From assembly GCA_002734085.1 (NCBI GenBank), contig NVXV01000004.1, forward strand, positions 1 through 53,882: DNA of 53,882 nucleotides, given 5' to 3'. Made by a program: the position numbers and the translations under genes. The notes under the pieces were generated by a model that was not told the DNA's origin, ran no database searches, and was given only the letters and a program-made list of their open reading frames with translations. This document shows positions 23,426 through 52,443 of the stretch, in pieces (positions within the stretch are counted from its first letter, which is position 1; the number at the start of each line of letters is the position of its first letter). Origin of the DNA: Fluviicola sp. GTDB taxonomy: Bacteria; Bacteroidota; Bacteroidia; Flavobacteriales_D; Crocinitomicaceae.

Positions 23426-23803
23426 ATGAAAAATAATCAATCGTGCATTCGAGTATTTGCTGACCAGGTTCAAATAGACAATTGTAGGGAAGTACTTAAA
23501 GCCAACGATAAATCATTCAACCAACTGAGTAGACTCTTAGCATTGGCGGGAAACGAAGTAAGGTTAAAAATCTTATTTCTCTTAGAAGAAGAAAACGAAC
23601 TTTGTCCTTGCGACCTTTCAGATATTCTCGGAATGAGCATTCCTGCAGTTTCGCAGCATCTCAGAAAACTAAAAGATGGAAACGTCATTGAAGGCAGAAG
23701 AGAAGGACAAACCATTTTCTATTCTTTAAAACAAGAGCAACTCACTATACTTCGTCCATTTTTTAAACACATCATTAATAATTCAAAAAAAGTAGCTCTA
23801 TGA
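23426..23803 (+). CDS. ArsR/SmtB-family metal-responsive repressor of the mer operon
   Basis: It has 125 residues with a winged-helix ArsR domain. LARLLALAGNEVRLKIL-type sequence, ENELCPCDLSDILGMS (with CPC, the Cys pair in the ELCVCDL position of ArsR) and AVSQHLRKLKDGNVIEGRREGQTIFYSL give the recognition helix and wing. Extra Cys at residues 7 and 20 could be metal ligands. It should release DNA on binding Hg(II) or a similar thiophilic ion. It replaces MerR here, as is known in other Bacteroidota. Its stop overlaps merTP by four bases (ATGA). Operator-like palindromes lie upstream. Confidence 0.88.
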   Translation: MKNNQSCIRVFADQVQIDNCREVLKANDKSFNQLSRLLALAGNEVRLKILFLLEEENELCPCDLSDILGMSIPAVSQHLRKLKDGNVIEGRREGQTIFYSLKQEQLTILRPFFKHIINNSKKVAL

Positions 23804-24402: not shown

Positions 24403-24447
24403 TGTTTTTTTGCTTTTCATAATTGAAAACTTAATTAAATAATTAAA

Positions 24448-35151: not shown

Positions 35152-35160
35152 TTTTATAAT

Positions 35161-36486: not shown

Positions 36487-36499
36487 TTCTTAGTATTTG

Positions 36500-37561
36500 T
36501 TAAGCTATCGTTATTTTATCTTCCAAATAAATCCCTTGTACTGTATTTAACAATTCAACACCTTCTTTGAAAGGTCGTTGAAATGCCTTTCTTCCGAGAA
36601 TTAAACCCGACCCTCCAGCTCTTTTGTTAATAATTGCTGTTATTACTGCTTCAGTAAAATCAGACGCTCCCTTGGAACTACCCCCAGAATTAATCAACCC
36701 TATATTCCCCATATAACAATTAGCCACTTGCATTCTACATAAATCGATAGGATGATCTGTTGTCAATTCTTTATACATAGCATCATTAAACTTCCCGAAT
36801 TTAATGTTCTTAAAACCATAGTTGTTTTCAGGGATTTTTTGTTTAATTATGTCAGCTTGTATGGTGACACCAAGATGATTTGCTTGTGATGTTAAATCAG
36901 CCGACGCATGATAATCCTCTTTATCAGTGGTAAATGCTTCGTTGCGTAAGTAGCACCATAAAACAGTAGCCATTCCCAAACTATGCGCTTCTTCAAAGGC
37001 TTCTGCTATTTCTTTGAGTTGCCTGTTACTTTCTTTGGAACCAAAGTAAATCGTAGCACCTACAGCAACAGCTCCTAAATTCCATGCTGATTTCACTCGC
37101 GCAAAGAGCGTTTGATCATACTTATTTGGATATGTAAGAAGTTCATTGTGATTTATTTTCACAATAAATGGAATCTTATGGGCATATTTTCTAGCATTCA
37201 ATCCCATAACACCAAATGTGGATGCCACTCCATTACATCCAGCTTCAATTGCCAGTTTTATTATATTCTCAGGATTAAAATAGTCAGGATTTTTATAGAA
37301 AGAAATTGCGGCACCATGTTCAACACCTTGGTCTATTGGGAGAATATTAAGATAACCAGTTTCACTAAGATTTCCGTGGTTGTAGAGTTGTGATAGACTT
37401 CCAAGGACTCGTGTATTTCTATCACTGTTTATAAATACTTTATCCACAATATTCACTTCGGGGATCTGCAATTGATTTTTATTGATTTTTCCGCAAACGT
37501 GATCAAGGTAGAAAGTTGCTTTATCTCCTAATAAATGTATTATCTCTTCGTATTTTTTCAT
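36500..37561 (-). CDS. fbaB: Class I (archaeal/FbaB-type) fructose-bisphosphate aldolase
   Basis: 353 residues from the ATG at 37561. The TTG at 37573 would overlap the GAPDH stop but adds no conserved sequence. The DhnA-type (beta/alpha)8 fold shows in [41 protein letters not shown] and NSGGSSKGA. The enzyme cleaves or forms fructose-1,6-bisphosphate through a Schiff base. It directly follows the type II GAPDH gene, so two consecutive steps of triose metabolism are co-transcribed. It is likely an accessory copy beside the organism's own enzyme, acquired with the island. Confidence 0.9.
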
Positions 37562-37569
37562 ACCTTCTT

Positions 37570-38586
37570 TCAATTAATTCCTAAACTTTCATTGGTTTTG
37601 CGAATAGAATTCTCGGCATTTTTTTCTAGTCCTGTCAAAGCCCTTATAGCGTCAATTGTTTCAGGTATTACAATCGCTTGATTATCTACAACATACGCAT
37701 AATACAACTCGTCTCCTTCTACTTTCAGCATATCCTGCCAAAGAGCAACTTCATACATGTCTCCCCAAGGACGTCCCATATCCAAATATCTTTCTTTGAT
37801 TGTATTATTGGAAACCAAACCATCTGAATAATTCATATAACATATCCTTGTTGATGTTTTAAAAGCTTTCAAAACTTCTTCCTTAGATGATTCCCGTGTA
37901 AGACGAACATTCCAATAATGCAGATGACTTAGTGTTTGAGGTACTTTCACAGCCATCGTTACTACATCTATTTCAGGATCTACACTCTTTGCATCTGGTC
38001 CTTGGTGACTAGGAATGTCTTTTTCTGGAACTAACGTATTCATAATTCCTCCGAGGTGACTTTCCCAAGGATCTGTAGCTCTTCTAAGTAATGTACCACG
38101 AGCGTTTTTTAAGAGGTTTGCTCGCTTTAAAGCTGTAAGTGTACGTAAAATCGAAGTAGTATTACAAGAGACAACCCTAGTGCTGTCGCGGTTAATGGCA
38201 GTAGTATAATTATTCTCGGCACTAAAAGAATGACCCGTAGTTTCATGTTTTTCTCCACCTTGTAGGATGAACTTAACTCCCCATTCTTTATAAACCTCCA
38301 GATTTTGTTCGGCTATTTTCTTGGGGGTACAGTCGACTACCAAATCGACTACTTCCAGCAGATCATGCATATCACCAGCCAATGGAATACCTGCCTTTTG
38401 CATGGTGTTTTTTGATTCGCTGGTGGCTGCATAAACTGCATATCCTTTTTTTATAGCAGAATGAATACGCCAGTCACTAATTACATCACACACACCCGTT
38501 AACTCCATATCATCCTGCTTTGCTACTGCATCAGCAACTCTTTTACCTATAACACCATATCCAATAATTGCTACTTTCTTTTTCAT
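37570..38586 (-). CDS. Type II (archaeal-type) glyceraldehyde-3-phosphate dehydrogenase
   Basis: It has 338 residues. The Rossmann start [22 protein letters not shown] and the active-site VVSCNTTSI (Cys141) are the marks of the archaeal phosphorylating GAPDH, unlike bacterial GapA. Archaeal enzymes often accept NADP as well as NAD. It converts glyceraldehyde-3-phosphate to 1,3-bisphosphoglycerate or the reverse. It stands one base away from the K+ channel gene upstream and is followed by the class I aldolase. Both are typical of archaea and rare in bacteria, so lateral transfer is likely. Confidence 0.92.
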
Positions 38587-38587
38587 A

Positions 38588-39139
38588 TTATTTCTTTTTA
38601 ATTGTTGTATGAATATTATTTATGTTTGATAATCCAAATACGATTAATATAAAACTTTGACCAATCTCCAGAATCACTAAGATTTTTGCAGGGACTGTAA
38701 TAGGTACAATATCACCATACCCAATAGCTGCAAATGTTACTACACTGAAATAAAATGATTCAAATAAGTACTCTAGATAATTAACACTATCTAATGAACT
38801 AATTCCTAGAAAAGAAGATGAGTTTGAGGAAGCAAGGCAAGTGAAGTCTGCTGCATATGAGAAAATAATTAAGAATACTAGTAGTCCAAAAACCCATAAG
38901 AGTTGGCTATAAGAATGACACTCTTTAATTGATTTATTAACTTGTCTGAAAGTAAAAAAGGTAAAATAACTTGTCTTAATAAGTGCTAATAAAATTATAA
39001 AGTAAGGCACCCAGCTTTGCTCATGATCTAAAAACCTCATAAGGTAAACATAGATAAGGATTACTAATAGCACTAGCAGAAGTGTTGGGCTCAGCTGTTT
39101 TAGAAACTGAGTAAAGAAATGATCTATTTTATTTTTCAT
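38588..39139 (-). CDS. Two-pore-helix-type potassium channel protein
   Basis: It has 183 residues with four hydrophobic segments. The last pair flanks a pore loop with the selectivity filter TFAAIGYGDIVP (GYGD). The N-terminal pair may be a degenerate voltage-sensor-like part. There is no RCK or cyclic-nucleotide domain. It would conduct K+ and help set membrane potential. Its ATG overlaps the MFS stop by four bases, and its stop is one base before the GAPDH ATG. A role in low-energy survival is inferred from the neighbours. Confidence 0.85.
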   Translation of the reverse strand: MKNKIDHFFTQFLKQLSPTLLLVLLVILIYVYLMRFLDHEQSWVPYFIILLALIKTSYFTFFTFRQVNKSIKECHSYSQLLWVFGLLVFLIIFSYAADFTCLASSNSSSFLGISSLDSVNYLEYLFESFYFSVVTFAAIGYGDIVPITVPAKILVILEIGQSFILIVFGLSNINNIHTTIKKK

Positions 39140-40401
39140 ATTTCTATGTCATTAATTGACGAAATAGTGTTAGTACTATTCTCGTACAAGGTTTTAAACA
39201 CAATAATTGAAGTAATAACCAATAGACCACTAATTATATAAAACGGGCTATATGGACTCAAAATATATAATGCTGTCCCTGCTAAGGGACCAATAATCTG
39301 ACCTATACCACTAAAAGAAGATTGCATTCCAAGCGCCCAACCTGATGATTTTGGTTCCTTAAGGGAGATCTGAGCAAGAAGATTTGGAACAATTAAAGAA
39401 GATCCTAAACCAAAAACACCTATATTTAATAGAATAATCCATTGGGTTTGAATCAATACAAATACGGGTAATGTAAGCCCTGCAATCAAAAAACCGAAAG
39501 CCATTTGTTTCTCAGGATTAGCGATAAATAGCTTTCCGTATTTTGCTACAATTGGCTGCATGATGGCCATCACCAAGCCGCAGATTAATAAACCTGCGCC
39601 AATAAAAGCAGCTGAATATTTACCGGAGTCTTTAACATAAAGTGGAAAGACTGTTTCAAAGGAAGTGATTCCAAGTTGTAAAATAGAGGATAATAATAGT
39701 AGCTTTCCGAAGATAATCCATTTTCCTTTTGGAAACAATGCACCAAATGATGTGACCGTTTGATTTAAATGGGTTTTCTTGTTGTTTTTTAAAAAGACCA
39801 ATGTAAGTATAAGTGTCAACAATCCAATGATAGCAAGTATTATAAATGGAACACTAAAGCGGTCAATTAAAAGATGAAAAGAAGGTTCCCATCTCAAATG
39901 CCAGTTATTACCAATCAATAATCCGCTAATAGCGGGACCGGTAACCACACCAGCACTGACCGCTGTTCCAGCCCAAGCCATGGCTTTAGTACGGTTAGCT
40001 TCATCTGTGATGTCTGATATAAAAGCATTGATGACTGGTACTAAGAAGGAAGAGAACAGACTCCCTACAATTCGGGCTACATAAAGCATAGTCAGGCTAG
40101 TACTAAAAGCAATCATTACCTGCATTAATGTAAATCCGACAAGACCTATTACTATAGGCCATTTAGAACCGATTCGGTCAGAAATTCTCCCCCAGAGTGG
40201 AGCGGTGAACACCAGTGTTATAGGGTAAATAGCAGTGAGTACACCAAAGTGAAAAACAATATTTTCGGGGTCTATCGGATATGAAATAATACGTTCTAGA
40301 AAAAATGGTAAAACGGGCAATAATACACCATAGCCCATCATCACCACGAAAAGGCAAATTAGGAGTAAAAGAAGGTTTGAATTAACATTCCATTTATTCA
40401 T
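39136..40401 (-). CDS. MFS transporter
   Basis: 421 residues from the ATG at 40401 (a TTG two codons earlier is not needed), with twelve predicted helices. The loop 2-3 motif GRISDRIGSKWPIVIG (G-x-x-x-D-R-x-G-x-K type) and a repeat-like SPYSPFYIISGL end are seen, as in drug:H+ antiporters of the DHA1 type. The cargo is unknown, and a multidrug or metabolite exporter is likely. It stands between the CopB gene (35 bases) and the channel gene (four-base overlap), hence in the same operon. Confidence 0.82.
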   Translation of the reverse strand: MNKWNVNSNLLLLLICLFVVMMGYGVLLPVLPFFLERIISYPIDPENIVFHFGVLTAIYPITLVFTAPLWGRISDRIGSKWPIVIGLVGFTLMQVMIAFSTSLTMLYVARIVGSLFSSFLVPVINAFISDITDEANRTKAMAWAGTAVSAGVVTGPAISGLLIGNNWHLRWEPSFHLLIDRFSVPFIILAIIGLLTLILTLVFLKNNKKTHLNQTVTSFGALFPKGKWIIFGKLLLLSSILQLGITSFETVFPLYVKDSGKYSAAFIGAGLLICGLVMAIMQPIVAKYGKLFIANPEKQMAFGFLIAGLTLPVFVLIQTQWIILLNIGVFGLGSSLIVPNLLAQISLKEPKSSGWALGMQSSFSGIGQIIGPLAGTALYILSPYSPFYIISGLLVITSIIVFKTLYENSTNTISSINDIEI

Positions 40402-40436
40402 TTTCAACTTATAATTTGAATTTAATGTATGTTTGA

Positions 40437-42524
40437 TTAACTACCTTCATTTGATTTTTTCTTCATTTTTCCTTTAAGTAATTGTGCGTTGATTGCAACA
40501 ATAATCGTACTTAAACTCATGAAAACAGCTCCTATTGCAGGCCCTAAAACAAAGCCGCTAGAGTATAAAACTCCCGCTGCTAGAGGGATTGCAAAAGCAT
40601 TGTACCCAGTTGCCCATATTAAATTTTGAATCATTTTGTTATATGTTGCTTTACCAAATAAGATTAAGTGAGCAATATCCTGAGGGTTACTATTAACTAA
40701 AATTATATCTGCTGTTTCAGCTGCCACATCAGTACCTGAACCTACAGCAATTCCAACGTTAGCCTGAGCTAGTGCAGGCGCATCATTTACACCATCACCA
40801 GTCATGGCTACAAATTCACCTTTCTCTTGAAGTTTTTTAACTATCTCAACTTTTTGGTGAGGCAAAACTTCAGAATAATAACCATCCAGCCCAAGTTTTT
40901 CACTTACTGCCTTAGCTGTTATTTCATTATCACCTGTTGCCATCAAAACTTTTATATTATTATTTTTAAATATGTTAATAGCTTCTGCTGATTCAGGTCT
41001 TATTTCATCTGCGAGAGCGATATAACCAGCTAATTCCCCATTAATAATCACAAAAACAACTGTTTCAGCGGCATCACTATATGCATCTTTTGGAATGTCT
41101 ATTTTTTCATCTCTTAAGTAACCAGGACTTACTACTTTTACCTCTTTCCCTTCTACTTTTGCTTCTACCCCCTTACCAGTAATTGCGTTAAATTTTTCAA
41201 GTGCTGGAATAGTTAGATTATCTTCCTTTACTTTTTTAATAATTCCTACAGCAATAGGATGTTCGGAGCTTTGCTCTAAAGCACTAGCGAGTCTTAACAC
41301 TTCAGCCGAAGGATATTCTGTATTGACTGATTCAATCCTTGTCACTCCGAAGTCTCCTTTGGTCAGTGTACCAGTCTTATCAAAAAGCAATGCAGATATT
41401 TTTCGTGACTCTTCAAATGCAGTTCTATTTCTGATCAACAATCCATTTTGCGCTGAAACGGCAGTAGAAATAGCTACTACCAACGGTATAGCTAAACCTA
41501 GTGCATGCGGACAAGCAATCACCATGACGGTTACCATTCTTTCTAAAGCATAAACAAAAGGAAAACCTAAAAACAACCAGATTGCCAAGGTGCTAAAGCC
41601 AACAGTTATTGCAACATAAGTAAGCCATTTGGCAGCCCTATCTGAGAGATTTTGCATTTTTGATTTTGTCTTTTGGGCTTCCTCAACCATCTTGATGACC
41701 TTGTTCAGATAACTATCCTTTCCAGTATGTTCTACTCTTGTTTTGAGTGAACCATTACCATTAATGGAACCACCAATTACTTTTTGGTCGACACCTTTCT
41801 TTACAGGTTTTGATTCACCAGTAAGCATCGACTCATTCAAATAGCTTTCACCTTCAACAATTATAGCATCAGCAGGTACTTTTTCACCTGGTTTGATGAG
41901 AATAACATCATCTTTCTGGAGTTCTTCCAGTTTAACATCTTCTACTTGATCTCCATTTACACGGTGGGCCTCTGCAGGCATCATGCTAACTAAAAGCTGT
42001 AGTGCTTTAGAGGCTCCTAATACTGATTTCATCTCTACCCAGTGACCGAGCAACATAATATCAATCAATGTGGCTAATTCCCAGAAGAAATCTTCACCTT
42101 CTAATCCAAAAACAGTTGCAGAACTATAGAAATACGCTACGCTGATAGCCATTGCAATTAAGGTCATCATACCTGGGCCTTTTGACTTTACTTCAGTGTA
42201 GAAACCTTTTAAAAAAGGCCACCCTCCCCAGAAATATACTATAGATGAAAGACCAAAAATAATATAGGCATTTCCTGGTAAAAGCCACTCATAACCAAAA
42301 AAGCCCTGAATCATAGGAGAAAAAACTAGAATAGGGATCGATAAAATAGTTGATATCCAAAAGCGCTTTTTAAAGTCTTCAATCATCATCTTGTGATGAT
42401 CGTGTCCCATTTGACCATGGCTTGGGTTGTGTCCACTATGAGTCCCATGAGCTGAATGGTCTTTATGTTTCTCGTTTTGTTTTTGGTTGTGTTTATCATG
42501 TTGATGCTTCTCGTGATTCTTCAT
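40437..42524 (-). CDS. copB: CopB-type copper P1B-3 ATPase
   Basis: A 695-residue inner-membrane pump. It has a His-rich N-terminal tail (residues 1-45; HAHG/HDHH-type repeats, given in parts: HGTHSGHNPSHG, GHDHHKM) instead of HMA domains, TGES (235-238), CPH in helix 6 (338-340), DKTGT (382-386), SEHPIA, and GDGVNDAPALAQANVGIAVGSGTDVA. CPH rather than CPC sets it in subgroup P1B-3, which handles Cu(II)/Cu(I) or Ag. It stands apart from copA (30832-33084) and sits inside the nucleotide/energy run, 10 bases after PPK2. Confidence 0.93.
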   Translation of the reverse strand: MKNHEKHQHDKHNQKQNEKHKDHSAHGTHSGHNPSHGQMGHDHHKMMIEDFKKRFWISTILSIPILVFSPMIQGFFGYEWLLPGNAYIIFGLSSIVYFWGGWPFLKGFYTEVKSKGPGMMTLIAMAISVAYFYSSATVFGLEGEDFFWELATLIDIMLLGHWVEMKSVLGASKALQLLVSMMPAEAHRVNGDQVEDVKLEELQKDDVILIKPGEKVPADAIIVEGESYLNESMLTGESKPVKKGVDQKVIGGSINGNGSLKTRVEHTGKDSYLNKVIKMVEEAQKTKSKMQNLSDRAAKWLTYVAITVGFSTLAIWLFLGFPFVYALERMVTVMVIACPHALGLAIPLVVAISTAVSAQNGLLIRNRTAFEESRKISALLFDKTGTLTKGDFGVTRIESVNTEYPSAEVLRLASALEQSSEHPIAVGIIKKVKEDNLTIPALEKFNAITGKGVEAKVEGKEVKVVSPGYLRDEKIDIPKDAYSDAAETVVFVIINGELAGYIALADEIRPESAEAINIFKNNNIKVLMATGDNEITAKAVSEKLGLDGYYSEVLPHQKVEIVKKLQEKGEFVAMTGDGVNDAPALAQANVGIAVGSGTDVAAETADIILVNSNPQDIAHLILFGKATYNKMIQNLIWATGYNAFAIPLAAGVLYSSGFVLGPAIGAVFMSLSTIIVAINAQLLKGKMKKKSNEGS

Positions 42525-42534
42525 AATGTTTATT

Positions 42535-43263
42535 TTATTTAGGATATTTTAAATTTAATTTTTCTAACTGTTTAGTTAAGATTTTAGCTGCTAAATAATT
42601 TCGATACCAACGTTTGTCCGAAGGGATTATTTGCCAAGGAATATGATCACAATTGTTCAGTATTTGATTATACGCTTTTCTGTATATTTCCCATTGTTTG
42701 GGTATGAGATCATCTTCTTTAGAGTATTTCCAGCGCTTGTGAAGCTTAGTCTTTCGCTCTTCAATTCTATTAATCTGCTCATCCCTTGATATGTGAAGGT
42801 AAAACTTTACAATCACCGTATTGTTTGTAAGAAGGTGGTGTTCAAGTTCGTTAATCAGACCAGTTCTATGCTGCAAGACATCCTTAGAAAGACTTTTATT
42901 TACAGTTGGCATTAAAATGTCTTCATAGTATGAGCGATTAAATACCTTTATCATTCCTTTTTCTGGGAAATGAGGATAAATCCTCCATAAAAAGTCATGA
43001 TTTTTTTCATCTTCAGTTGGTTTTTTAAAAGATTTTACCTGAACACCTTGAGGATTCATACTGCTAAATGCATTACGGATTATTCCATCTTTACCAGAAG
43101 TATCAAGTCCCTGTAATATAATTAACAGACTGAATCGACCGTCAGCATAGAACTTGTTTTGAAGTTTGAAAAGTTCTCTCTTTAGTAATTTTAGTTGGTT
43201 CTTTGTTTCATCTTTTTTAATTCCCGATGGAGGTAATACCGATATGTTTTCCAGATCAATCAT
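42535..43263 (-). CDS. ppk2: Polyphosphate kinase 2 family protein
   Basis: It has 242 residues, one PPK2 domain. The Walker A-like GLDTSGKDG (about 50-58), FLWRIYPHFPEKGMIKVFNRSYYEDIL, HLHISRDEQ and the end GDYxxWxxxxxxYE-like PKQWEIYRKAYNQIL are present. It moves phosphate between inorganic polyphosphate and ADP/AMP or GDP, so it can regenerate nucleotides when energy is short. It overlaps the gene at 43256-43576 by eight bases and precedes copB by 10. Confidence 0.9.
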   Translation of the reverse strand: MIDLENISVLPPSGIKKDETKNQLKLLKRELFKLQNKFYADGRFSLLIILQGLDTSGKDGIIRNAFSSMNPQGVQVKSFKKPTEDEKNHDFLWRIYPHFPEKGMIKVFNRSYYEDILMPTVNKSLSKDVLQHRTGLINELEHHLLTNNTVIVKFYLHISRDEQINRIEERKTKLHKRWKYSKEDDLIPKQWEIYRKAYNQILNNCDHIPWQIIPSDKRWYRNYLAAKILTKQLEKLNLKYPK

Positions 43264-43576
43264 CTTTTCTCATCTTTAGTTTTTCTATCATCGACTCACT
43301 AAAACTTTCACTGTAGATACCATAGGCATCAACTAAAATTCCTTTTATGTCTTTTTCACCACTAATAGCAAAAAGAATACTGTTATCATCAGGGTCACTT
43401 TCACCTTCGAATCGGTAATAGCTATCTATTTTGAAATCCTCTGGATACAGTTGTAGTTTTGAACTGGCACATTCTAAACAATACGGTTTTAAATTAAAAT
43501 CTTCGGTATATCCTTGATTTCTTAATTCATTTATAGCTTGGCTTAATGTGTCAAAATTTGAGTTTTGTTTATTCAT
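43256..43576 (-). CDS. Small conserved protein (often mis-named PRPP synthetase)
   Basis: It has 106 residues. NELRNQGYTEDFNL, YCLECASSKLQLYPEDFKID, YYRFEGESDPDDNSILFAIS and KGILVDAYGIYSE are a conserved block of a small Bacteroidota family. Databases sometimes label such proteins phosphoribosylpyrophosphate synthetase, but none of the PRPP synthetase motifs are present. The lone CLEC pair may bind metal. It overlaps the PPK2 ATG by eight bases. The function is unknown. Confidence 0.75.
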   Translation of the reverse strand: MNKQNSNFDTLSQAINELRNQGYTEDFNLKPYCLECASSKLQLYPEDFKIDSYYRFEGESDPDDNSILFAISGEKDIKGILVDAYGIYSESFSESMIEKLKMRKDD

Positions 43577-43598
43577 ACTATCTCATGTTTAAAATATA

Positions 43599-44897
43599 TT
43601 ATTCCTTTGTTCTCTTTATAAACCATTTTTCACCCATAAAAACCAAAAGCATTACTGATGCAGAAACAATTAAAACAAGTATATCAGATTTTACTTTTAT
43701 CCATAAAAATGCTGATAAAACAATAAAATCTAAAATTAAAGCGGACAATATGATTATCCCGTTAGCGTTTACTTCTCTTCTTAAATGTTTATAAACACCC
43801 CAGTGGATAATCATATCCATAACCAAATAAAAAATAGCTCCCATAGAAGCAATTCTGGAGAGATCAAAGAAAACAGTTAGAATGATGGCAACAACAACCG
43901 TATAAACTAACATGTGTTTTTGAATACGTCCAGACATTCCAAAATGACTGTGTGGAATTAGATCCATGTTGGTAAGCATTGCTGTCATGCGTGAAACTGC
44001 AAAAATACTAGCAATTACTCCAGAAATAGTGGCTACAATTGCAATTCCAACAGTAAAGTACAATCCGAAGTCGCCAAAAGCAGGTTTGGCTGCCTCGGCG
44101 AGTGAATAATCCTTGGCTTTTATGATTTCTGAAATAGTAAGGCTTGAATTTACTGCAAAAGCCACAAGAAAATAAACCACTGTACAAATCAATAGTGAAA
44201 TAATTATAGATCGGCCTACATTTTTTTTAGGGTTGGTTATTTCACCTCCACTATTTGTAATTGTAGTAAACCCTTTATAGGCTAGAATAGAGAGCGCGAG
44301 AGCACCTATGTAACTAGTCGTGGAATAATCAACATTATCAGCTGTTTTGGGAATTAATCCATCCAATGAAAAACCTACAACCCATAAAGCACCAAGGGCA
44401 AAAATGATAATTCCGACAATTTTAATAAAGGACATGAATTGCGAAGATTTACCAATAAGTTTATTCCCAGAGATGTTAATAATAAAAGCAACAATTAATA
44501 ATGCTACACCCAAGATTGGAATCCAGAGAGTTTTGTTTTCCACAGTAAATAATTGTAATGTGTACGAACCGAATGTTCTGGCTACTAAACTTTCATTGAT
44601 TACCATTGATAACGCCATTAAAAGCGATGCTGACGCTGTTATGGTTGTTTTTCCATATGCCTTCTTTAAAATCATAGCAATACCACCCGCGGAAGGATAT
44701 GTATTTGAAACTTTGATATAGGAATATGCACTAAAAGCTGATATAATAGCTCCTAAAATAAATATATATGGAAACCAAGTTCCTGATAGTTCTGCAACTT
44801 GGCCGAGTAAAGCGAAAATCCCAGCTCCTATCATTACCCCTGTACCTAAGGCAACTGATCCTGTAAGTGTTAGACTGTTTTTAATGTAATCGCTCAT
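43599..44897 (-). CDS. APC-superfamily amino acid permease
   Basis: It has 432 residues and twelve helices. The start GVMIGAGIFALLGQVAEL is the conserved APC helix 1 with its broken glycine motif. Also seen are NISGNKLIGKSSQF (about 145-158) and KGFTTITNSGGEITNPKKNVG, the usual loop. The carried amino acid is unknown. It is separated by 22 bases from the following small gene and 35 from the secreted protein upstream, part of the same run. Confidence 0.88.
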   Translation of the reverse strand: MSDYIKNSLTLTGSVALGTGVMIGAGIFALLGQVAELSGTWFPYIFILGAIISAFSAYSYIKVSNTYPSAGGIAMILKKAYGKTTITASASLLMALSMVINESLVARTFGSYTLQLFTVENKTLWIPILGVALLIVAFIINISGNKLIGKSSQFMSFIKIVGIIIFALGALWVVGFSLDGLIPKTADNVDYSTTSYIGALALSILAYKGFTTITNSGGEITNPKKNVGRSIIISLLICTVVYFLVAFAVNSSLTISEIIKAKDYSLAEAAKPAFGDFGLYFTVGIAIVATISGVIASIFAVSRMTAMLTNMDLIPHSHFGMSGRIQKHMLVYTVVVAIILTVFFDLSRIASMGAIFYLVMDMIIHWGVYKHLRREVNANGIIILSALILDFIVLSAFLWIKVKSDILVLIVSASVMLLVFMGEKWFIKRTKE

Positions 44898-44932
44898 TTC
44901 TAATAATTTATTTTGTTTAAAGTATTGTATTA

Positions 44933-45592
44933 TTAAGGATAATGAACCATGAAATAGCCCTCATTTTCCGTTCTAAATAATTGACTATTCAATATTCTAT
45001 TATGATCAAAGTTTTCTATAAGCTGAAAAGTTTTAGTTTTTACTTTAACTCCCCATAAATAGGCTTCAATGGTTAACGTTGATTTAAGTTTAAACCCATC
45101 TTCGTTTTTAATTAGTATTCTATTGGTAAAAGTTAAAATATTTGTCGAACCAAAAAAACTAAGAACTCCTGATTCAATTGACATAGAAATGCTCAGGTCG
45201 TTTAATGTTTTGTCTTCAGAATTGAAATCATAGAGTTTTTTAAAACGAGTAGAAGTAGTTTCTATCATATATTCGGCATTTCTATTTCGTGCAAATGGAA
45301 ATACAGCCAAAATTACATCAGATTTATCGGGATTACAGGTGTATTGGGTAAAGTACTTCTCATCAAGTGTATTTTCTTCATCAAAAAGATTGACTTCTAT
45401 ATCTACAGTAAGAACCTTATCGTTCGTTTGTAATTCTCCAACTATAAAAACTTGTCTAGAAATTAATTCTTTATCATCATTGAACGCTTTACGGATTATT
45501 TTTTTACCGGCAATTTGCTCAATAAGCATATCCTGGCCGTTGACAAGAATGCCAATAAAAATGAACAGTAAGAGTAGGGAGATTTTAATCAT
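44933..45592 (-). CDS. Secreted protein of unknown function
   Basis: It has 219 residues with a signal peptide (MIKISLLLLFIFIGILVNGQ). The mature part is strand-rich with many Lys and Asp, and shows no Cys and no sorting tail. It could form a lipocalin- or barrel-like fold, but no family is recognised. Its ATG lies inside the 3' end of the PRPP synthetase gene (eight-base overlap), a strong sign of co-translation. The following APC permease starts 35 bases on. Confidence 0.6.
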   Translation of the reverse strand: MIKISLLLLFIFIGILVNGQDMLIEQIAGKKIIRKAFNDDKELISRQVFIVGELQTNDKVLTVDIEVNLFDEENTLDEKYFTQYTCNPDKSDVILAVFPFARNRNAEYMIETTSTRFKKLYDFNSEDKTLNDLSISMSIESGVLSFFGSTNILTFTNRILIKNEDGFKLKSTLTIEAYLWGVKVKTKTFQLIENFDHNRILNSQLFRTENEGYFMVHYP

Positions 45593-46475
45593 GTTTCATC
45601 GTTTTTTTTATTGTGCTAGCTAATAAACTACTTAAATCTATTTGATTACTTTCATGTGGAATGGTATTGCAAGTGATTACTCGTGCACCTGCTTTTTGAA
45701 GATCCTCATATGCATTTCCAGCAAAAACAGCATGTACTCCTATACAAACTGGAGGTTTCAATCCAGTATTTTTTAAATGATTTACAGTTTCGATCATTGT
45801 ATGAGCGGTTGAAATAATATCATCAACCAGTACTGGCGTATGATTTTTGTAGTCATCAACCTTTGGTATAGAGACCTTAACATCTCTATCACCACGACGT
45901 GTTTTTTCCAAAACGATAAACGGTGCACCTGCATTATTGGCTACTTTAGAAACCCATTGCTCACTCTCACTATCAGGACCTACCAACACGGGGTTTTCTA
46001 TATTTTCTTTGATCCAATTTGAAATTGCATTTGCAGCGTGAACCAGTTCTGAGGGAATGTTATATATTTCGGTGAGCGACTCTCTCCTATGAAGGTGAGG
46101 ATCTACTGTGATCAAGCTATCTGCAAAACTTGAAATTAGCTTTCCGAAATAATTTGAAGTCACCCCTTCACCAGCATTAAATACCTTATCTTGTCTCATG
46201 TATGCTAAATAAGGGGCTACAAGGCAAGTGCATTTTGCTCCTAAACTCTTGGCGGTTTGAGAAAGGAAATAAATTGGTAGTAGTTTTTCATCGGGTTGAT
46301 GTAATGTCGCTACCAATACTACGCACTTGTTTTTAACCTCTGAAAGTATACGTACATACGTTTCTCCATCGGGAAATTGCCTAATCGTAGTTTCTCCTAT
46401 TTCCGCTTCAAGATCATTGGCAAGATTCGCGGTAAGCTCTTCATTTCCAGCTAGTCCAAAAAGTATTATTTTCAT
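45585..46475 (-). CDS. prs: Ribose-phosphate pyrophosphokinase (PRPP synthetase)
   Basis: It has 296 residues, nearer the compact archaeal length than the usual 310-320 of bacteria. Motifs are FPDGETYVRI, the ATP-site-like YMRQDKVFNAGEGV, the divalent-metal/PRPP loop DPHLHRR, the RRGDRDVKV loop, and the PRPP signature VLVDDIISTAHTM. It joins ATP and ribose-5-phosphate to PRPP + AMP, and may run backwards. It directly follows the AMP-phosphorylase-family gene by nine bases, so ribose units released there may pass to it. This is likely a second Prs beside the housekeeping one. Confidence 0.9.
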   Translation of the reverse strand: MKIILFGLAGNEELTANLANDLEAEIGETTIRQFPDGETYVRILSEVKNKCVVLVATLHQPDEKLLPIYFLSQTAKSLGAKCTCLVAPYLAYMRQDKVFNAGEGVTSNYFGKLISSFADSLITVDPHLHRRESLTEIYNIPSELVHAANAISNWIKENIENPVLVGPDSESEQWVSKVANNAGAPFIVLEKTRRGDRDVKVSIPKVDDYKNHTPVLVDDIISTAHTMIETVNHLKNTGLKPPVCIGVHAVFAGNAYEDLQKAGARVITCNTIPHESNQIDLSSLLASTIKKTMKHD

Positions 46476-46484
46476 TTCTCTTAT

Positions 46485-47987
46485 TTATTGGATTGTTAAA
46501 ATATTTTTTTGTGAGTTATAGTATTCCAATGTGTAATTAAGTTCACCCTCTGATTCAGCGTGAATAACGTAAAGTGTTTGTCCTTTTTCCACCATCGTGC
46601 CTATAGGTGTTAAAAAATCTATTCCAGAAGTTTTGTTTTCTGGTGCACCTGCTAATTTGGCAATTTTAGCTAATTTACGATTATCTACTTTAGTTACTGA
46701 ACCTGCACGTTCTGCTTTTATTTCATGTTGGTATCTTGCTAGTTCAGGTTCAGAAAATCCTCCCTGAGCTTTACATATAGCCATGAATTTTCTATAGGCC
46801 TTACCTGACTCTAACAGATCTCTTGACATATTAATACCATCGCCAGTTTGAACTGAATCAGAAAGCTCTAGTATTTCTCCTGCCAACAACAAAGCACGTT
46901 CTTTTAAATCTTGGGGAGCATGAGATTCGTTTCTTAGAACTGCTAAAATATCCCTTGCTTCTAATGCTGGGCCAATCCCTCTACCAACAGGTTGTGAACC
47001 ATCAGTTATAATTACTTTCAGTTTCAAGCCAATAGCATCACCTACTTTTTCCATTGCTATTTTAAGCTCATTAGCTGCATCAGTACTCCGCAACTTGGCA
47101 GTTTCACCTACTGGTATATCTATGATGACGTGATTAGATCCAGCCGCTACTTTTTTTGACAATACCGAAGCAATTAATTGTCCTTCACTATCAATATCTA
47201 AGGCTTTTTCTACCTTAATCAGTATATCATCGGCAGGACTTAATTTTGCAATTTCCCCCCAGACTATGCAACCACCTTCTTTCCCCACGACTTTTATAAT
47301 TTCTTCCATTGAAAGATTCACTTTCGTCATTACTTCCATTGTATCTGCTGTTCCAGCAGGTGATGTAATGGCTCTTGAGGAAGTTTTAGGCATGATTAAT
47401 CCAAATGCTGTTACGATAGACACCACAATTGGTGTAGTTCTGTTACCGGGTAGACCTCCAATACAATGTTTGTCAACAATGATTCCTGACCCCCACCGGA
47501 TACGTTGTCCTGTTGCAATCATAGCTTCAGTCAGTGAAATAATTTCATTGATTTCCATACCTTTCCCTGCACATGCTGTAATAAATGCGGAGAGGAAAAC
47601 ATTAGAATAATCGCCATGAACAATATCTGTAATAATTTCTTTCATCTCCTTAGACGAAAGAGTATTACCATATATCTTTGATCTAACATGACTCAAAGAG
47701 CTCATTGGATGTAAATGTGAGACAGAAATAGTTGTTCCTTCTTTCACTTCTAATGCAGTAACAGCACTTATTGAAAGACTGATTTCTCCTGGCTGTAATA
47801 TTTCGGATCTAATGACATTTAGATTCGCTACTATAGATTTTTCACCATTGAAAATACGAATACGAGTTAAGGCTTCAAACCCCTCGGAGATACAGACGTG
47901 ACAATCCTCTCTCATATAAACATGATGCTCGTTTTGAGTATGAATCCCTAGATTTTTAAATATTAGTTTATTTATTTGACCGTTCAT
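46485..47987 (-). CDS. AMP-phosphorylase / thymidine-phosphorylase family protein
   Basis: It has 500 residues. An N-terminal domain of about 85 residues precedes the pyrimidine-phosphorylase fold, as in archaeal AMP phosphorylase and the Legionella-type enzyme. Motifs are HGDYSNVFLSAFITAC, DKHCIGGLPGNRTTP (phosphate-binding), SSRAITSPAGTADTMEV and DGSQPVGRGIGPALEA. It should split NMPs or nucleosides with phosphate to a base and a ribose (bis)phosphate. The specificity is not readable here. It lies 9 bases before prs and overlaps the beta-CASP RNase gene by 20 bases. No RuBisCO or R15P isomerase lies in the window. Confidence 0.85.
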   Translation of the reverse strand: MNGQINKLIFKNLGIHTQNEHHVYMREDCHVCISEGFEALTRIRIFNGEKSIVANLNVIRSEILQPGEISLSISAVTALEVKEGTTISVSHLHPMSSLSHVRSKIYGNTLSSKEMKEIITDIVHGDYSNVFLSAFITACAGKGMEINEIISLTEAMIATGQRIRWGSGIIVDKHCIGGLPGNRTTPIVVSIVTAFGLIMPKTSSRAITSPAGTADTMEVMTKVNLSMEEIIKVVGKEGGCIVWGEIAKLSPADDILIKVEKALDIDSEGQLIASVLSKKVAAGSNHVIIDIPVGETAKLRSTDAANELKIAMEKVGDAIGLKLKVIITDGSQPVGRGIGPALEARDILAVLRNESHAPQDLKERALLLAGEILELSDSVQTGDGINMSRDLLESGKAYRKFMAICKAQGGFSEPELARYQHEIKAERAGSVTKVDNRKLAKIAKLAGAPENKTSGIDFLTPIGTMVEKGQTLYVIHAESEGELNYTLEYYNSQKNILTIQ

Positions 47988-49383
47988 CTATATTTTGTTT
48001 TTTTACTTCCAATGGGATGTCTTCAATACTGTATAACTCTGGTATTGTGGAGTTCCATCCATAAATATCATTTATTTTTAATTTTAGGGTGTCAGCTGAT
48101 TGATTTTCTCCATGAATAATGAATACATTTTCTGGAGTATTCTTAATATCACTCATCCAATCGAGTAACTCTGACTGATCTGCATGTGCCGAAAGTACTT
48201 GCAAATTAAAGACCTCAGCTTTAACATCATAGTGTTTACCATAAATTTTTAATTCTGAAGCCCCTTCCAGTAACTTTCGTCCTCTTGTACCTTCTGCTTG
48301 AAAACCTGCTAAAAGTACAGATGTTTCTGATCTACTGAGATATTGTTGAAGATATGTAAGCACTCGCCCACCACTCATCATACCACTACCAGCAATAACA
48401 ATTTTGGGACGCTTATCATCGATTACCTCCCAAGTTTCTTTATATTCTTTTACAATATGGAATAAGTTACACATTTTTATGCAGTCCTCTTTAGATATCT
48501 TATGCCACTCCCTATGGATGTGAAAAACATTAAGCACATTAGCTCCCATTGGACTATCCATAATCATTGGTATATTGGGTATAACTCTCTTTTCATGTAA
48601 CTGCCACAACAGATACATTAATGTTTGAGTACGTTCCACAGCAAAACTCGGAATTATAAGCGTTCCATCTTTTTCTACGGTGTGAAGAATAATTTTTTTT
48701 AGTTTTGACTCCAAATCTTCTTTGGAGTGTAACCTGTCACCGTAGGTGCTTTCAATAAAAAGAACATCTGCTTTTTCGGGTTTCTTATATGGTCTCATAA
48801 GTAAATCTTTCTTCCGTCCTATGTCACCAGAAAATACAAATCGTTTACCGTGAATATCCAACTCAATGAATGTAGCTCCGATTATATGTCCGTTGTATTG
48901 AAACCTTGCTTTAATTCCCTCAAAGATATCTAACCACTTACCTTCAGAAACAGGACTAAACTGAGCTATAGCCCTCTCTGCATCCTTTATGTCATACAAT
49001 GGTTTTGCTGGGTTGTGCTTAGAGTAGTTTTCCTTGTTTGCTTTTTCTGCATCCTCCTCTTGTATTTTAGCACTGTCAAGAAGAATGATTTCTGCTATAT
49101 CTAGCGTAGGAGCAGTTCCGTATATATTTTTGTTAAATCCCATTTTCACCAGTCTCGGCAAATATCCCGTGTGATCCATGTGACCATGAGTGAGTAATAT
49201 TGCGTCTATTTCATCTATGCTAACAGGCAAAGTATTCCAATTCAGTAATCGTAATTTTTTTAACCCTTGAAATAATCCACAGTCAACCATGATCTTATAT
49301 TGTCCCGTATCTATCAGGTATTTTGAGCCAGTAACTGTTCCAGCTGCACCTAAAAAATGGATTTTAATATTATCTCTTTTCAT
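47968..49383 (-). CDS. MBL-fold beta-CASP ribonuclease
   Basis: It has 471 residues. The metallo-beta-lactamase motif LTHGHMDHTGYLPRL (HxHxDH) is followed by HIIGATFIELDIHGKRFVFSGDIG, a beta-CASP cap with IESTYGDR and FAVERTQTLMYLLW, and the end motifs AGSGMMSGGRVLTYL and LSAHADQSELLDW, as in CPSF-73-like RNA exo/endonucleases. It binds two zinc ions. It would cleave RNA to oligo- or mononucleotides, supplying the phosphorylase encoded by the overlapping next gene. It starts 21 bases after the ATP-cone nuclease gene. Confidence 0.88.
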   Translation of the reverse strand: MKRDNIKIHFLGAAGTVTGSKYLIDTGQYKIMVDCGLFQGLKKLRLLNWNTLPVSIDEIDAILLTHGHMDHTGYLPRLVKMGFNKNIYGTAPTLDIAEIILLDSAKIQEEDAEKANKENYSKHNPAKPLYDIKDAERAIAQFSPVSEGKWLDIFEGIKARFQYNGHIIGATFIELDIHGKRFVFSGDIGRKKDLLMRPYKKPEKADVLFIESTYGDRLHSKEDLESKLKKIILHTVEKDGTLIIPSFAVERTQTLMYLLWQLHEKRVIPNIPMIMDSPMGANVLNVFHIHREWHKISKEDCIKMCNLFHIVKEYKETWEVIDDKRPKIVIAGSGMMSGGRVLTYLQQYLSRSETSVLLAGFQAEGTRGRKLLEGASELKIYGKHYDVKAEVFNLQVLSAHADQSELLDWMSDIKNTPENVFIIHGENQSADTLKLKINDIYGWNSTIPELYSIEDIPLEVKKQNIDERSNK

Positions 49384-49404
49384 TATCTCCTATTTATTAA
49401 ATTA

Positions 49405-50259
49405 CTAAATCCCACACAATTGATGAGCTTCGCTTAAAATATTTTTTTGTCGTCGTTGGCTCACCCCTATTGATTTTAATAATTCGGGTTGATTGCACAA
49501 CTCCATACATAATACGTTTTCTTTTGAAAGTAGCTTTTGTTTTTCGTCTTTTGTTAATGTCGTTAGAGAAGTTATAGGGTGTAAACCAGAGAGATCAATT
49601 CGTTCTTTCAAGCTGTCCACCTTTGGATAATCCCATCCAACAAGCATCAACCCTGCACAAGTTCCATATCGGATGGCATCAGATGTAAATCTAGTATTGG
49701 TGTAAATCCAACCTTGATGAAATTTCGTTTCATGCCCGTCTTTCTTGCTCCACTGTTTTTCTACATCTATAAATCTAGATTGAATATACAGAGGAATTTT
49801 AACATTGCACTTCCTACCTTGTTCGCTGTGAAACTTACACTCCACCATAAAATGTTTATTCTCTTTTTTAGCAACAACATCAACTTCGTGGTTAACACAA
49901 TGACCTTTTACGATTACACCTACTTTAGTTTTAAAATTCTCATATTCCAGAATCTTACCAACAAATTTTTCAAAAGGAAATCCAGTTGGTCCAAGTTCTA
50001 AAATGGCATTTTTTAATTTATATTTTGCTGCGGTAGGCCGTGAGCTTTTGCGTAACAGTTTAAAAGCAGTTTTATAAATCTCTTTGGTAGTCATACCTTC
50101 ATATAACAGTGCCTTTACTTCATCAATCACTTTTTGAACAACCAAATTATTTGCCCCTGAACGTTCCAATGAGGTTCTCAACTTTGATTGATCAAACTTG
50201 GCTTTTTCCCCGTTCATTTTTATAATGGAGACTTCATTATGTGCTTGTGACTGTTTCAT
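49405..50259 (-). CDS. ATP-cone plus Mrr-type restriction-endonuclease-like protein
   Basis: It has 284 residues. The first about 85 form an ATP-cone (KMNGEKAKFDQSKLRTSLERSG, EIYKTAFKLL), the nucleotide-sensing domain of NrdR and ribonucleotide reductase. The middle (about 105-200) is a PD-(D/E)xK nuclease of the Mrr type with EVDVV and FMVECKF (E-x-K). The C-terminal 40 residues may be a helix-hairpin-helix. So a nuclease may be controlled by ATP/dATP level. No methyltransferase or other restriction gene is near. The gene leads the RNase, phosphorylase and prs genes. Confidence 0.8.
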   Translation of the reverse strand: MKQSQAHNEVSIIKMNGEKAKFDQSKLRTSLERSGANNLVVQKVIDEVKALLYEGMTTKEIYKTAFKLLRKSSRPTAAKYKLKNAILELGPTGFPFEKFVGKILEYENFKTKVGVIVKGHCVNHEVDVVAKKENKHFMVECKFHSEQGRKCNVKIPLYIQSRFIDVEKQWSKKDGHETKFHQGWIYTNTRFTSDAIRYGTCAGLMLVGWDYPKVDSLKERIDLSGLHPITSLTTLTKDEKQKLLSKENVLCMELCNQPELLKSIGVSQRRQKNILSEAHQLCGI

Positions 50260-50307
50260 TATTATTGATTCGTTTCAATATGATGTTTTAGTAATTGTTT
50301 CATCGTC

Positions 50308-51141
50308 TTATTTGGAATTTATATTTATACTGAAAATAGGAATCTCTGAATGATTCACGAGGCTTTCTGTAATACTAGGTGAGATCATTTTCATAAAGCC
50401 AGTTCTACCATGTGTAGTTAATGCTACGACATCAGCATTTATTGATTCAGCAAATTTTTGAATTCCTCTTTTTTCATTCAGAGCGTTGTAAATATTTGTA
50501 GTGTACGATTTTTTGTTCGAACTTTTTAAGAAAGACTGCATTTTAGCTTCTATTTCGTCGGTTTCTTTGAAATTAAAAGGAACGTTTACATTTAACAAAT
50601 GAATTTTTGCTCCCATAAATTGTGCAAAATCGACTACTTTTTGAAATGGCTTTTTAACTTCTTCTTCAAATGTAGATGCAAATACTATATTTTTAACTTC
50701 AAAGTTTTGGGGCTTTTTCTTTACTACTAATACAGGTACGGGGGAGTATCTCACAACTCTCTGGGTATTCGTGCCTACAATTTCTTTTACCCCTTTAGCC
50801 CCAAAAGACCCCATAATTATAAAATCATGTTCGTGATGTTTAATATGAAAGTCAATTTCTTCCTGACCCTTATCATAAACCAGGAATGTTTGTGCATTGA
50901 CCCCATTTTTTTTAGCCTCTCTTTTTAGTCGTGAAAGTTCACTTTGAGCATATCCAATTTTCTTTTTTACTTCAGGATAGAATTCTTCTTTTTCGAGGGG
51001 TAATTTCACCCAGTCTACTGGTGTGTGTAATAAATGTAAAAAATGAATTTCTGAATTATATTTTTTCGCTAATTCAAGTCCTAACTGTTCGGCTTCTCTT
51101 GCACAGTCAGAAAAATCTGTTGGTATTAAGATATTTTTCAT
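50308..51141 (-). CDS. Universal stress protein with two Usp domains
   Basis: It has 277 residues and two Usp folds in tandem. The first has NILIPTDFSDCAREAEQ and GSFGAKGVKEIVGTNTQRV...PVPVLVV (G-2x-G-9x-G nucleotide site). The second has KNIVFASTFEEEV and THGRTGFMKMISPSITESL. It is cytosolic, binds ATP in many members, and is induced when growth stops or oxygen drops. It lies 9 bases after NDH-2 and 48 before the ATP-cone gene. Its position suggests a starvation or low-oxygen regulon. Confidence 0.92.
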   Translation of the reverse strand: MKNILIPTDFSDCAREAEQLGLELAKKYNSEIHFLHLLHTPVDWVKLPLEKEEFYPEVKKKIGYAQSELSRLKREAKKNGVNAQTFLVYDKGQEEIDFHIKHHEHDFIIMGSFGAKGVKEIVGTNTQRVVRYSPVPVLVVKKKPQNFEVKNIVFASTFEEEVKKPFQKVVDFAQFMGAKIHLLNVNVPFNFKETDEIEAKMQSFLKSSNKKSYTTNIYNALNEKRGIQKFAESINADVVALTTHGRTGFMKMISPSITESLVNHSEIPIFSININSK

Positions 51142-51150
51142 GTTATTTTT

Positions 51151-52443
51151 TTATTTAAACTTTCTAATAATTAACCTATTTCCTTTATCATAGGTGAAGT
51201 AACTCCATGCCCAATTCATGGCTACCAAAATTTTATTTTTAAACCCACTAATTGAAATCAAATGAACAAAAGACCAGAGCAGCCATGCAGTATAACCACC
51301 AAATTTTAACCTCCCAATATCTGCAACTGCTCTTCGTTTACCTATAGTAGCAAGTGACCCTTTATTTTTGTACTTAAATTCACTCATACCTCTCCCTTTT
51401 AATTGAAGTAACAAGTTGGATGATAAGTTTTTACCTTGCTGGATTGCTACCTGAGCTACCATTGGATGACCATTGGGATAATTCTCAGACAAGATTGCTG
51501 CAATATCTCCTATGGCATAAATATTTTCGTATCCCTTTAATCTACAATAATCATCCACTAAAATACGGTTCCCGTTGGTAATATTCTGTTTTTTGATGCC
51601 AGTTGGAACATTTCCTTTCACTCCCGCAGTCCAAATCATTGTTCTTGCTTGTAGTAATGCTCCTTTATTTGTTTTAATATTTAATCCATCATAGGATTTC
51701 ACCATATTGTTTAAACGCACATCAACCCCCATTTTATTGAGAAATTTCAAAGAATTTTCTGAAGACTTACTAGACATAGATTTTAATAATTCGTCATCAG
51801 CCTCAATTAGGTAAACAGACATGATGGAAGCATCTAGCTCTGGATAATCTCTCGGTAGAATATATTTTTTAAATTCAGCAATTGCTCCTGCCGTTTCTAC
51901 CCCTGCAGGCCCTCCTCCAATAACAGCAAAATTAGTTAGTGCATCACGCTCTACATCATCACATGTCACAACAGACTTTTCAAGATTTTGTAAAATTATG
52001 CTTCGAATATCTAAAGCTTCTTGTATACTTTTCATACCTAAAGCGTGCTTCTGCACATCTTTAAGACCAAAGAAATTCGTATCACTGCCCGTGGCAATAA
52101 TCAAGTAGTCAAATTCAATTGTTCCAATATCTGTAAGGACTGTATTAGATTCTGATTGAATTTCGTTTACTGAGGCCATTCTATAGTACACATTTGAATA
52201 TCCTTTAAACATTTTTCTAAGTGGAAATGCAATATTGCCTGGTTCTATACCACTTGTCGCTATTTGATAAAGTAATGGTTGAAATTGATGAAAATTATTT
52301 TTATCTAAAACCACAACTTGAAAAGGTTTATTTTTGAGCTGTTTGATAAGCGAAATACCTGCAAAACCTCCTCCAATCACTACTACTCTTGGTAAGTCAC
52401 TGTCTGGAAGGCAAATTTCATTTTCAGTTCTACATGCTTGCAT
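51151..52443 (-). CDS. ndh: Type II NADH dehydrogenase (NDH-2)
   Basis: It has 430 residues. The FAD-binding VVVIGGGFAGISLIKQL (residues about 20-36), NFAVIGGGPAGVETAGAI (NAD site), IIATGS and NIYAIGDIAAIL are present. The C-terminal GGYTAWLLWSFVHLISI membrane-association segment fits single-subunit NDH-2. It oxidises NADH and reduces the quinone pool without pumping protons. It is the first gene of the packed run, after a 137-base gap. It could keep NAD+ available for GAPDH when the proton-pumping chain is limited. Confidence 0.93.
   Translation of the reverse strand: MQACRTENEICLPDSDLPRVVVIGGGFAGISLIKQLKNKPFQVVVLDKNNFHQFQPLLYQIATSGIEPGNIAFPLRKMFKGYSNVYYRMASVNEIQSESNTVLTDIGTIEFDYLIIATGSDTNFFGLKDVQKHALGMKSIQEALDIRSIILQNLEKSVVTCDDVERDALTNFAVIGGGPAGVETAGAIAEFKKYILPRDYPELDASIMSVYLIEADDELLKSMSSKSSENSLKFLNKMGVDVRLNNMVKSYDGLNIKTNKGALLQARTMIWTAGVKGNVPTGIKKQNITNGNRILVDDYCRLKGYENIYAIGDIAAILSENYPNGHPMVAQVAIQQGKNLSSNLLLQLKGRGMSEFKYKNKGSLATIGKRRAVADIGRLKFGGYTAWLLWSFVHLISISGFKNKILVAMNWAWSYFTYDKGNRLIIRKFK

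Follow-up and report, generated by a model that had tools for sequence, protein, structure and literature searches.

A mobile gene pair of an NMP-phosphorylase-family enzyme and a Prs paralogue in Fluviicola sp. and its possible role in nucleotide salvage

Among the closest described counterparts of the locus analysed here is the archaeal shunt for nucleoside monophosphates (NMPs), or pentose bisphosphate pathway (T. kodakarensis TK0352, ribose-1,5-bisphosphate (R15P) isomerase, RuBisCO). To our knowledge, the end routes of R15P known from archaeal work all pass through R15P isomerase. In the part of a published account drawn on here, the archaeal phosphorylase splits AMP, CMP and UMP to give R15P, and halophilic archaea possess a non-carboxylating pentose bisphosphate pathway with guanosine phosphorylase, ribose-1-phosphate kinase, R15P isomerase, ribulose-1,5-bisphosphate phosphatase, aldolase and reductase (PMC9700705). 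Here, we consider a stretch of 53,882 nucleotides from Fluviicola sp. (the window), in which a gene for an NMP-phosphorylase-family enzyme lies between genes for a paralogue of ribose-phosphate diphosphokinase (Prs) and for a beta-CASP RNase.

The window phosphorylase is homologous to the archaeal enzyme, including the N-terminal region, and has the same residues at the positions that we take to be AMP-binding. Like its archaeal relative, as described in the same portion of that account, it would yield R15P from NMPs (PMC9700705). In contrast to the archaeal shunt, the genome has a dedicated Prs paralogue, often accompanied by the RNase in related loci, and gave no match either to PF01008, the R15P-isomerase family, or to RuBisCO; the preliminary description of this DNA, made from the sequence alone, had rightly held the archaeal end route to be missing. 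The halophile pathway is alike in being a RuBisCO-free salvage of ribose into ordinary triose metabolism, and unlike in its enzymes, one of which belongs to the isomerase family not found in this genome (PMC9700705, same portion). In outline, the pair is a variant of the archaeal NMP route, and the pairing itself is real, mobile and widespread. We found it undescribed in the literature searched, which mostly excludes subscription journals. With a probability that we put at about 0.5, the two genes form a mobile NMP-salvage pair, in which the phosphorylase would produce R15P, the Prs paralogue would carry out the next step and the RNase would provide the supply, a capacity useful when metals or low oxygen block respiration.

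Recurrence and mobility of the pair

The preliminary description had proposed that six genes of the window form one module. We examined 89 phosphorylase loci. Besides the window, these comprise six annotated plasmids, two genomes that a phylum search had yielded and the 80 best among at least 568 confirmed relatives from genome contigs; since some loci are short contigs, all counts over them are lower bounds. A Prs gene lies within 3 kb and on the same strand in 78/89 loci, and a beta-CASP gene in 47/89 (anywhere in 53/89). The ATP-cone nuclease gene is present in 27/89 loci, always on the same strand. Type II NADH dehydrogenase (NDH-2) was found in 2/89 loci, one of them the window, and the universal stress protein (Usp) in 10/89, and the six genes as one unit were therefore rejected. 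The core is the pair of the phosphorylase and the Prs paralogue, often with the beta-CASP RNase, and it is these members of the proposed module that recur. Rarity of the families together in other genomes, which the preliminary description took as a sign against its proposal, is not what we observed for these three.

An even sample was provided by 378 genomes from the phylum of the Legionella genome G451 (Pseudomonadota by inference), searched with thresholds that we set ourselves (E ≤ 1e-100 for the phosphorylase, 1e-70 for Prs and 1e-90 for beta-CASP) and that more divergent Prs would escape. The phosphorylase is present in 43 of these genomes and the PRK07199-type Prs in 40, all 40 being among the 43 and none among the other 335 (table 40/3/0/335, Fisher p=7e-51). 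Two of the three phosphorylase genomes without Prs show partial phosphorylase matches only. At 39 of the 47 phosphorylase places Prs lies within 300 bases, and at 42 within 5 kb. The Prs paralogue is a dedicated type, found almost only in the company of the phosphorylase; the preliminary description listed a Prs in the run, and this special nature escaped it. Beta-CASP genes are likewise enriched (28/43 phosphorylase genomes vs 52/335 others, p=2e-11). Because phosphorylase, Prs and RNase recur adjacent to each other in several phyla, their side-by-side occurrence exceeds chance.

Sequence distances between the partners are correlated: r=0.60 for phosphorylase and Prs (84 loci), 0.78 for phosphorylase and beta-CASP (53), 0.64 for Prs and beta-CASP (49) and 0.84 for phosphorylase and ATP-cone nuclease (26), with a Mantel p of 0.001 for each of the four pairs, the minimum attainable with 999 shuffles. 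Such correlations are expected for genes moving as a unit; plain common descent raises them too.

None of 58 other genomes of the host genus, family and order contains the phosphorylase family (E ≤ 1e-60), and in a sample of 395 genomes of the phylum it occurs in four (E ≤ 1e-100), the host included and one of the four being partial. Yet 171 plasmid records match the phosphorylase, and in 113 of these a single place spans at least 80% of the query, although the weaker ones may be ordinary nucleoside phosphorylases. The phosphorylase-bearing piece looks mobile because it is rare in host relatives and in the phylum sample and yet sits on many plasmids, the pairing being found on those of Bacteroidota, Chlamydiota and Pseudomonadota. 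Among the 13 plasmid neighbourhoods read first, the trio of phosphorylase, Prs and metallo-beta-lactamase (MBL) fold RNase is present in 12 (no MBL gene is listed in L096), and copper or heavy-metal genes are listed in 11 (all but L092 and L095). The pair is also seen in MT836048.1, a 13.5 kb human-faecal record named 'Bacteriophage sp.' and perhaps a bacterial or plasmid contig (phosphorylase at 50% and Prs at 45% identity). The pair has ATP synthase beta-subunit genes as direct or close neighbours in three loci (L008, L041, L166), from L. anisa, a second Legionella and one further genome.

The enzymes of the locus

The phosphorylase passes NF003338/PRK04350 (668.5 bits, cut-off 434) and TIGR02645 (583.1, cut-off 434.6), and falls far below the thymidine and pyrimidine models TIGR02643 (161.7 vs 570.7) and TIGR02644 (208.6 vs 409.05). 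Its nearest solved structures are 4ga5/4ga6 and 4ga4, of which 4ga5 and 4ga4 represent, we believe, the T. kodakarensis enzyme. Residues 43-97 align with residues 35-89 of 4ga5, that is, with an N-terminal domain presumably absent from thymidine phosphorylases; the listed pyrimidine-nucleoside phosphorylases align from residue 98 or later. We take the AMP-binding residues of the archaeal NMP phosphorylase to be G168, 194-199, T203, D256, S264 and K288. Across 153 loci, which hold 146 distinct sequences, each of the 11 positions is retained in 151-153. Four of them (G178, R205, T213 and S274 in the window protein) are common to pyrimidine-nucleoside phosphorylases, and the other seven differ in the three such enzymes aligned, where GRGLGHTGGTID stands in place of SRAITSPAGTAD and F in place of K298. 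These seven positions bear out the AMP-phosphorylase-family assignment made from the sequence at the outset. Because the presumed AMP-binding positions are kept and the archaeal relative cuts NMPs to R15P, the reaction of the window phosphorylase is likely to be NMP phosphorolysis. A DCxxC motif in its N-terminus was considered as a metal or redox switch and dropped, C29 being present in 127/153 and C32 in 111/153 loci.

The Prs paralogue shares with canonical Prs its family, passing the generic model TIGR01251 (209 vs 113 bits), and the RQD motif, K191 and R193. These residues, together with D125, H127, H129 and R130, are invariant in the 141 paired Prs loci. The host has a separate, ordinary housekeeping Prs (L100) elsewhere in the genome, with which the paralogue contrasts at two places. 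It reads DPHLHR against DLHADQIQGFF, and GPDSESEQW against APDVGGAKR at what is presumably the pyrophosphate-binding loop of Prs enzymes. GPDxE replaces the PDVGG of the housekeeping copy in 141/141 paired Prs (116 distinct), the full motif being GPDxE[S/A]xxW with E170 and W174 in 141/141. Because these sequences were selected for resembling the window protein, some of their agreement with one another is to be expected; what counts is how they differ from the ordinary copy. Two distant Prs from Bradyrhizobium and Sphingobium plasmids (32.6 and 33.6% identity) retain GPD[A/S]ES..W. An altered ribose 5-phosphate (R5P) loop was dropped as a diagnostic feature, as the usual G is found in Bradyrhizobium L170 and there is variation among the 141.

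Negative charge in place of the usual glycines near the diphosphate would argue for a changed substrate on the C1 side. It is conceivable, if rather doubtful, that the paralogue is not a synthetase of phosphoribosyl pyrophosphate (PRPP) at all and would either move the 1-phosphate of R15P to AMP or ADP, giving R5P and ADP or ATP, or phosphorylate R15P to PRPP. This idea is suggested because the loop is altered, the neighbouring enzyme should make R15P, with its single C1 phosphate, and the genome has no PF01008 match. If the paralogue does use R15P, this would be an enzyme activity not known before, and bacteria would have their own form of the archaeal route, closed without R15P isomerase or RuBisCO and conserving the energy of RNA bonds in a cell unable to respire. 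If it does not, the pair is still an uncharacterised mobile trait, often near copper-resistance genes and induced by low oxygen in one published case.

The beta-CASP RNase shares fold family and motif residues with TTHA0252, aCPSF1 and the type VII CRISPR nuclease Cas14 (PDB relatives 8yhd, Cas14, and 2dkf, RNase TTHA0252), and differs in scoring below the Cas14 (396.4 vs 800) and aCPSF1 TIGR03675 (280.1 vs 580) cut-offs. Pfam scans of 40 window proteins gave no family with a Cas name, no CRISPR repeat search having been made. Invariant in six aligned RNase sequences are H66, H68, D70, H71, H166, D187, E211, H400 and H424, presumably the metallo-beta-lactamase and beta-CASP motifs. The ATP-cone nuclease is homologous over residues 99-283 to AF1548 (1y88, E=1.4e-34) and, unlike AF1548-like nucleases, carries a preceding ATP-cone and sits before salvage genes; its PD-(D/E)XK site (D127, E140, K142) is kept in 20/20 aligned sequences of 27 found. 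As the preliminary description proposed, this nuclease may sense ATP.

Proposed role and competing explanations

In the proposed mechanism, the phosphorylase would convert NMP and phosphate into base and R15P, and the Prs paralogue would take the next sugar-phosphate step (R15P or R5P/PRPP), so that ribose would enter the pentose phosphates. The beta-CASP RNase may supply the NMPs from RNA, or control their supply, and the ATP-cone nuclease may do so as well in some lineages. Common enzymes of the pentose phosphates and of lower glycolysis would consume the sugar, and the run contains genes for a GAPDH-like protein and an aldolase; in other hosts the sugar may pass through phosphoketolase and acetate kinase, yielding ATP without respiration. 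The benefit would come when the respiratory chain is blocked by copper, by other metals or by a shortage of oxygen. The substrates, RNA as the source, the reaction of Prs and the role in survival are what we infer here.

The low-oxygen setting, already touched on in the preliminary description, fits published data for genes annotated as the trio. According to Table 2 of a study of B. diazoefficiens, the portion used here, the consecutive genes bll3115, bll3116 and bll3117, annotated as MBL hydrolase, Prs and phosphorylase, respond to 0.5% O2 with log2 fold changes in protein of 2.9, 4.4 and 2.1 and fold changes in mRNA of 15.4, 7.7 and 5.1; the phosphoketolase bll2518 rises by 4.3 (protein, log2) and 8.2-fold (mRNA) (PMC6515984). 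On a plasmid of a soybean Bradyrhizobium (B. septentrionale) phosphorylase, Prs and MBL genes are adjacent, in the gene order of bll3115-3117.

Phosphoketolase is encoded near the phosphorylase in 12/89 loci and acetate kinase in 9/89, all nine within the 12. The former is annotated in plasmid loci L007, L010 and L095; a gene annotated 'xylulose 5-phosphate 3-epimerase' in L097 matches it at 23%, and a like-named gene in L092, which did not match, was left out of the count. As a universal partner, phosphoketolase was rejected, being absent here and weakly associated across genomes. In L049, L058 and L075, phosphorylase, acetate kinase and phosphoketolase genes are consecutive and the retrieved sequence lacks a Prs match; this may be a second arrangement of the route. 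A PF01008 gene is present in two of ten other phosphorylase genomes sampled; we assume that these genes may be MtnA.

Several observations weigh against the salvage role. The phosphorylase stays below the cut-off of the AMP_phos equivalog TIGR03327 (471.3 vs 535 bits). Beta-CASP enzymes also perform RNA maturation. The beta-CASP gene lies within 3 kb at only 22 of the 47 phosphorylase places, and 52 of the 335 genomes that lack the phosphorylase nevertheless have it. Phosphoketolase is absent from this genome, four of the 12 matches to it near the phosphorylase reach only 21-23% identity, and its link at the level of the 378 genomes is weak (11/43 vs 39/335, p=0.017), with one of the 47 phosphorylase places having it within 3 kb and three within 25 kb. 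Two plasmid neighbourhoods read later hold the trio and list no metal gene, and the metal-linked company may reflect plasmid cargo alone. The bll3115-3117 genes, likened to the window trio by annotation and not by sequence, belong to the lenient list (log2FC ≥1 at both levels), outside the 62 significant proteins, and the portion of the study used here does not name them among the targets of FixK2 or NifA or among bacteroid-induced genes (PMC6515984).

An alternative that we regard as unlikely, though deserving of weight, is nucleotide repair. In this scheme Prs would make PRPP from R5P and ATP, and the phosphorylase, working near equilibrium or in reverse, would exchange bases and rebuild NMP pools after damage to RNA by metals or oxidants. 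The retention of K191, R193 and the RQD motif in 141/141 paired Prs and the score against the generic Prs model agree with it. On the other hand, the host already owns a housekeeping Prs, from which all 141 paired Prs differ at the pyrophosphate loop, and the phosphoketolase and acetate kinase genes linked in a minority of loci point to catabolism.

It is quite improbable that the locus is a random accumulation of stress genes within an island for metal resistance, even though NDH-2, Usp and permeases vary freely among loci and for NDH-2 and Usp this could still hold. Chance leaves unexplained the phosphorylase-Prs pairing (40/43 vs 0/335) and its presence on plasmids of three phyla. Very unlikely, too, is a growth-arrest or anti-phage device, in which two nucleases and nucleotide destruction would halt the cell. 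The distribution is indeed patchy and mobile, the RNase is close to Cas14, and the ATP-cone nuclease resembles the PADLOC model CARF_PDDEXK (E=9e-7). This is the one weak match among eight proteins scanned, the other seven having none. Also against defence are the copper or heavy-metal genes listed in 11 of the 13 plasmid neighbourhoods read first, though in neither of the two later ones, and the induction alongside microoxia genes in the portion of the Bradyrhizobium study used here (PMC6515984). The CARF_PDDEXK match in itself hints at kinship of the ATP-cone nuclease with CARF nucleases. Finally, salvage of thymidine or pyrimidine nucleosides, suggested by the database family name 'thymidine phosphorylase', is most improbable in view of the scores below TIGR02643 (162 vs 571) and TIGR02644 (209 vs 409) and of the SRAITSPAGTAD and K298 differences from three pyrimidine-nucleoside phosphorylases.

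The gene run and its surroundings

The six genes of the preliminary description are present as placed, in one direction and with gaps below 50 bases, and each of their family calls was upheld by profile searches (Table 1). From NDH-2 to Prs, the spacings are 9, 48, 21, -20 (overlap) and 9 bases. The two overlaps first described, of 20 and 8 bases, both exist; the former joins RNase and phosphorylase, and the latter lies outside the six, between Prs and the gene that follows it. Nor does the run end with Prs, where the preliminary description left it: 11 further genes follow in the same direction at spacings of at most 35 bases, before a 709-base gap. Their order is a 219-aa protein, amino-acid permease, 106-aa protein, PPK2, P-type ATPase, MFS carrier, ion channel, GAPDH-like gene, DeoC/LacD aldolase, dicarboxylate symporter and DUF3347 protein. 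A search for Bacteroidota promoters gave four matches vs 3.3 expected, none of them ahead of 52443.

Table 1. Features of the co-directional run in the window (aa, amino acids)
Feature	Position	Strand	Basis and occurrence
Whole co-directional run, 17 genes	34453..52443	-	inter-gene gaps ≤48 bases, ended by 709-base gap
NMP (AMP) phosphorylase-family enzyme, 500 aa; core of unit	46485..47987	-	profile scores, PDB relatives, AMP-binding positions
Prs paralogue, PRK07199 type, 296 aa; phosphorylase partner	45585..46475	-	NF005537 399.5 bits (cut-off 322)
Beta-CASP RNase, CPSF73/TTHA0252/Cas14 kin, 471 aa; frequent third member	47968..49383	-	Beta-Casp, RMMBL, Lactamase_B
ATP-cone + Mrr/PD-(D/E)XK nuclease, AF1548-like C-terminal domain; subset member	49405..50259	-	Pfam ATP-cone, Mrr_cat, AF1548-like_C
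Tandem Usp; occasional neighbour	50308..51141	-	Pfam Usp, two stretches; 10/89 loci
NDH-2; local neighbour outside conserved unit	51151..52443	-	Pyr_redox_2 + NDH2_C; 2/89 loci (window, L038)
219-aa protein, signal-peptide-like start (by eye)	44933..45592	-	no Pfam match; 16/89 loci; after Prs in related islands
Conserved 106-aa protein, downstream of Prs	43256..43576	-	no Pfam match; 10/89 loci
PPK2 polyphosphate kinase	42535..43263	-	PF03976 E=1.3e-56; TIGR03709 278 bits (cut-off 247); 7/89 loci
GAPDH-like protein	37570..38586	-	Gp_dh_C, DapB_N; 10/89 loci
DeoC/LacD-family aldolase	36500..37573	-	PF01791 E=1.7e-59; 8/89 loci

The GAPDH-like protein is 59% identical to the product of a gene annotated as type II GAPDH in Acidovorax (L093). 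The AlphaFold model of the 219-aa protein has a mean pLDDT of 68, and its nearest folds are the YmcC-like Bacteroides lipoproteins 4fvs and 3fzx, at low TM-scores of 0.31-0.36.

The window makes up the opening 53,882 bases of a 238,702-base contig, and its being a plasmid as a whole was not established. Outside the run, the scanned part encodes further metal-type proteins, whose substrates are assigned by family resemblance alone: MerT, a mercuric-reductase-like protein (HMA + Pyr_redox), a fusion of a CusA-like pump and an outer-membrane factor, two more P-type ATPases, a cation-efflux protein and a FUR-type regulator. The fusion is a single frame of 1470 aa at 18251-22663, in which a CusA-type RND pump is joined to an outer-membrane efflux protein. 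At 23426-26103, on the plus strand and thus opposite to their neighbours, lie the genes for an ArsR-type regulator, MerT-HMA and the mercuric-reductase-like protein.

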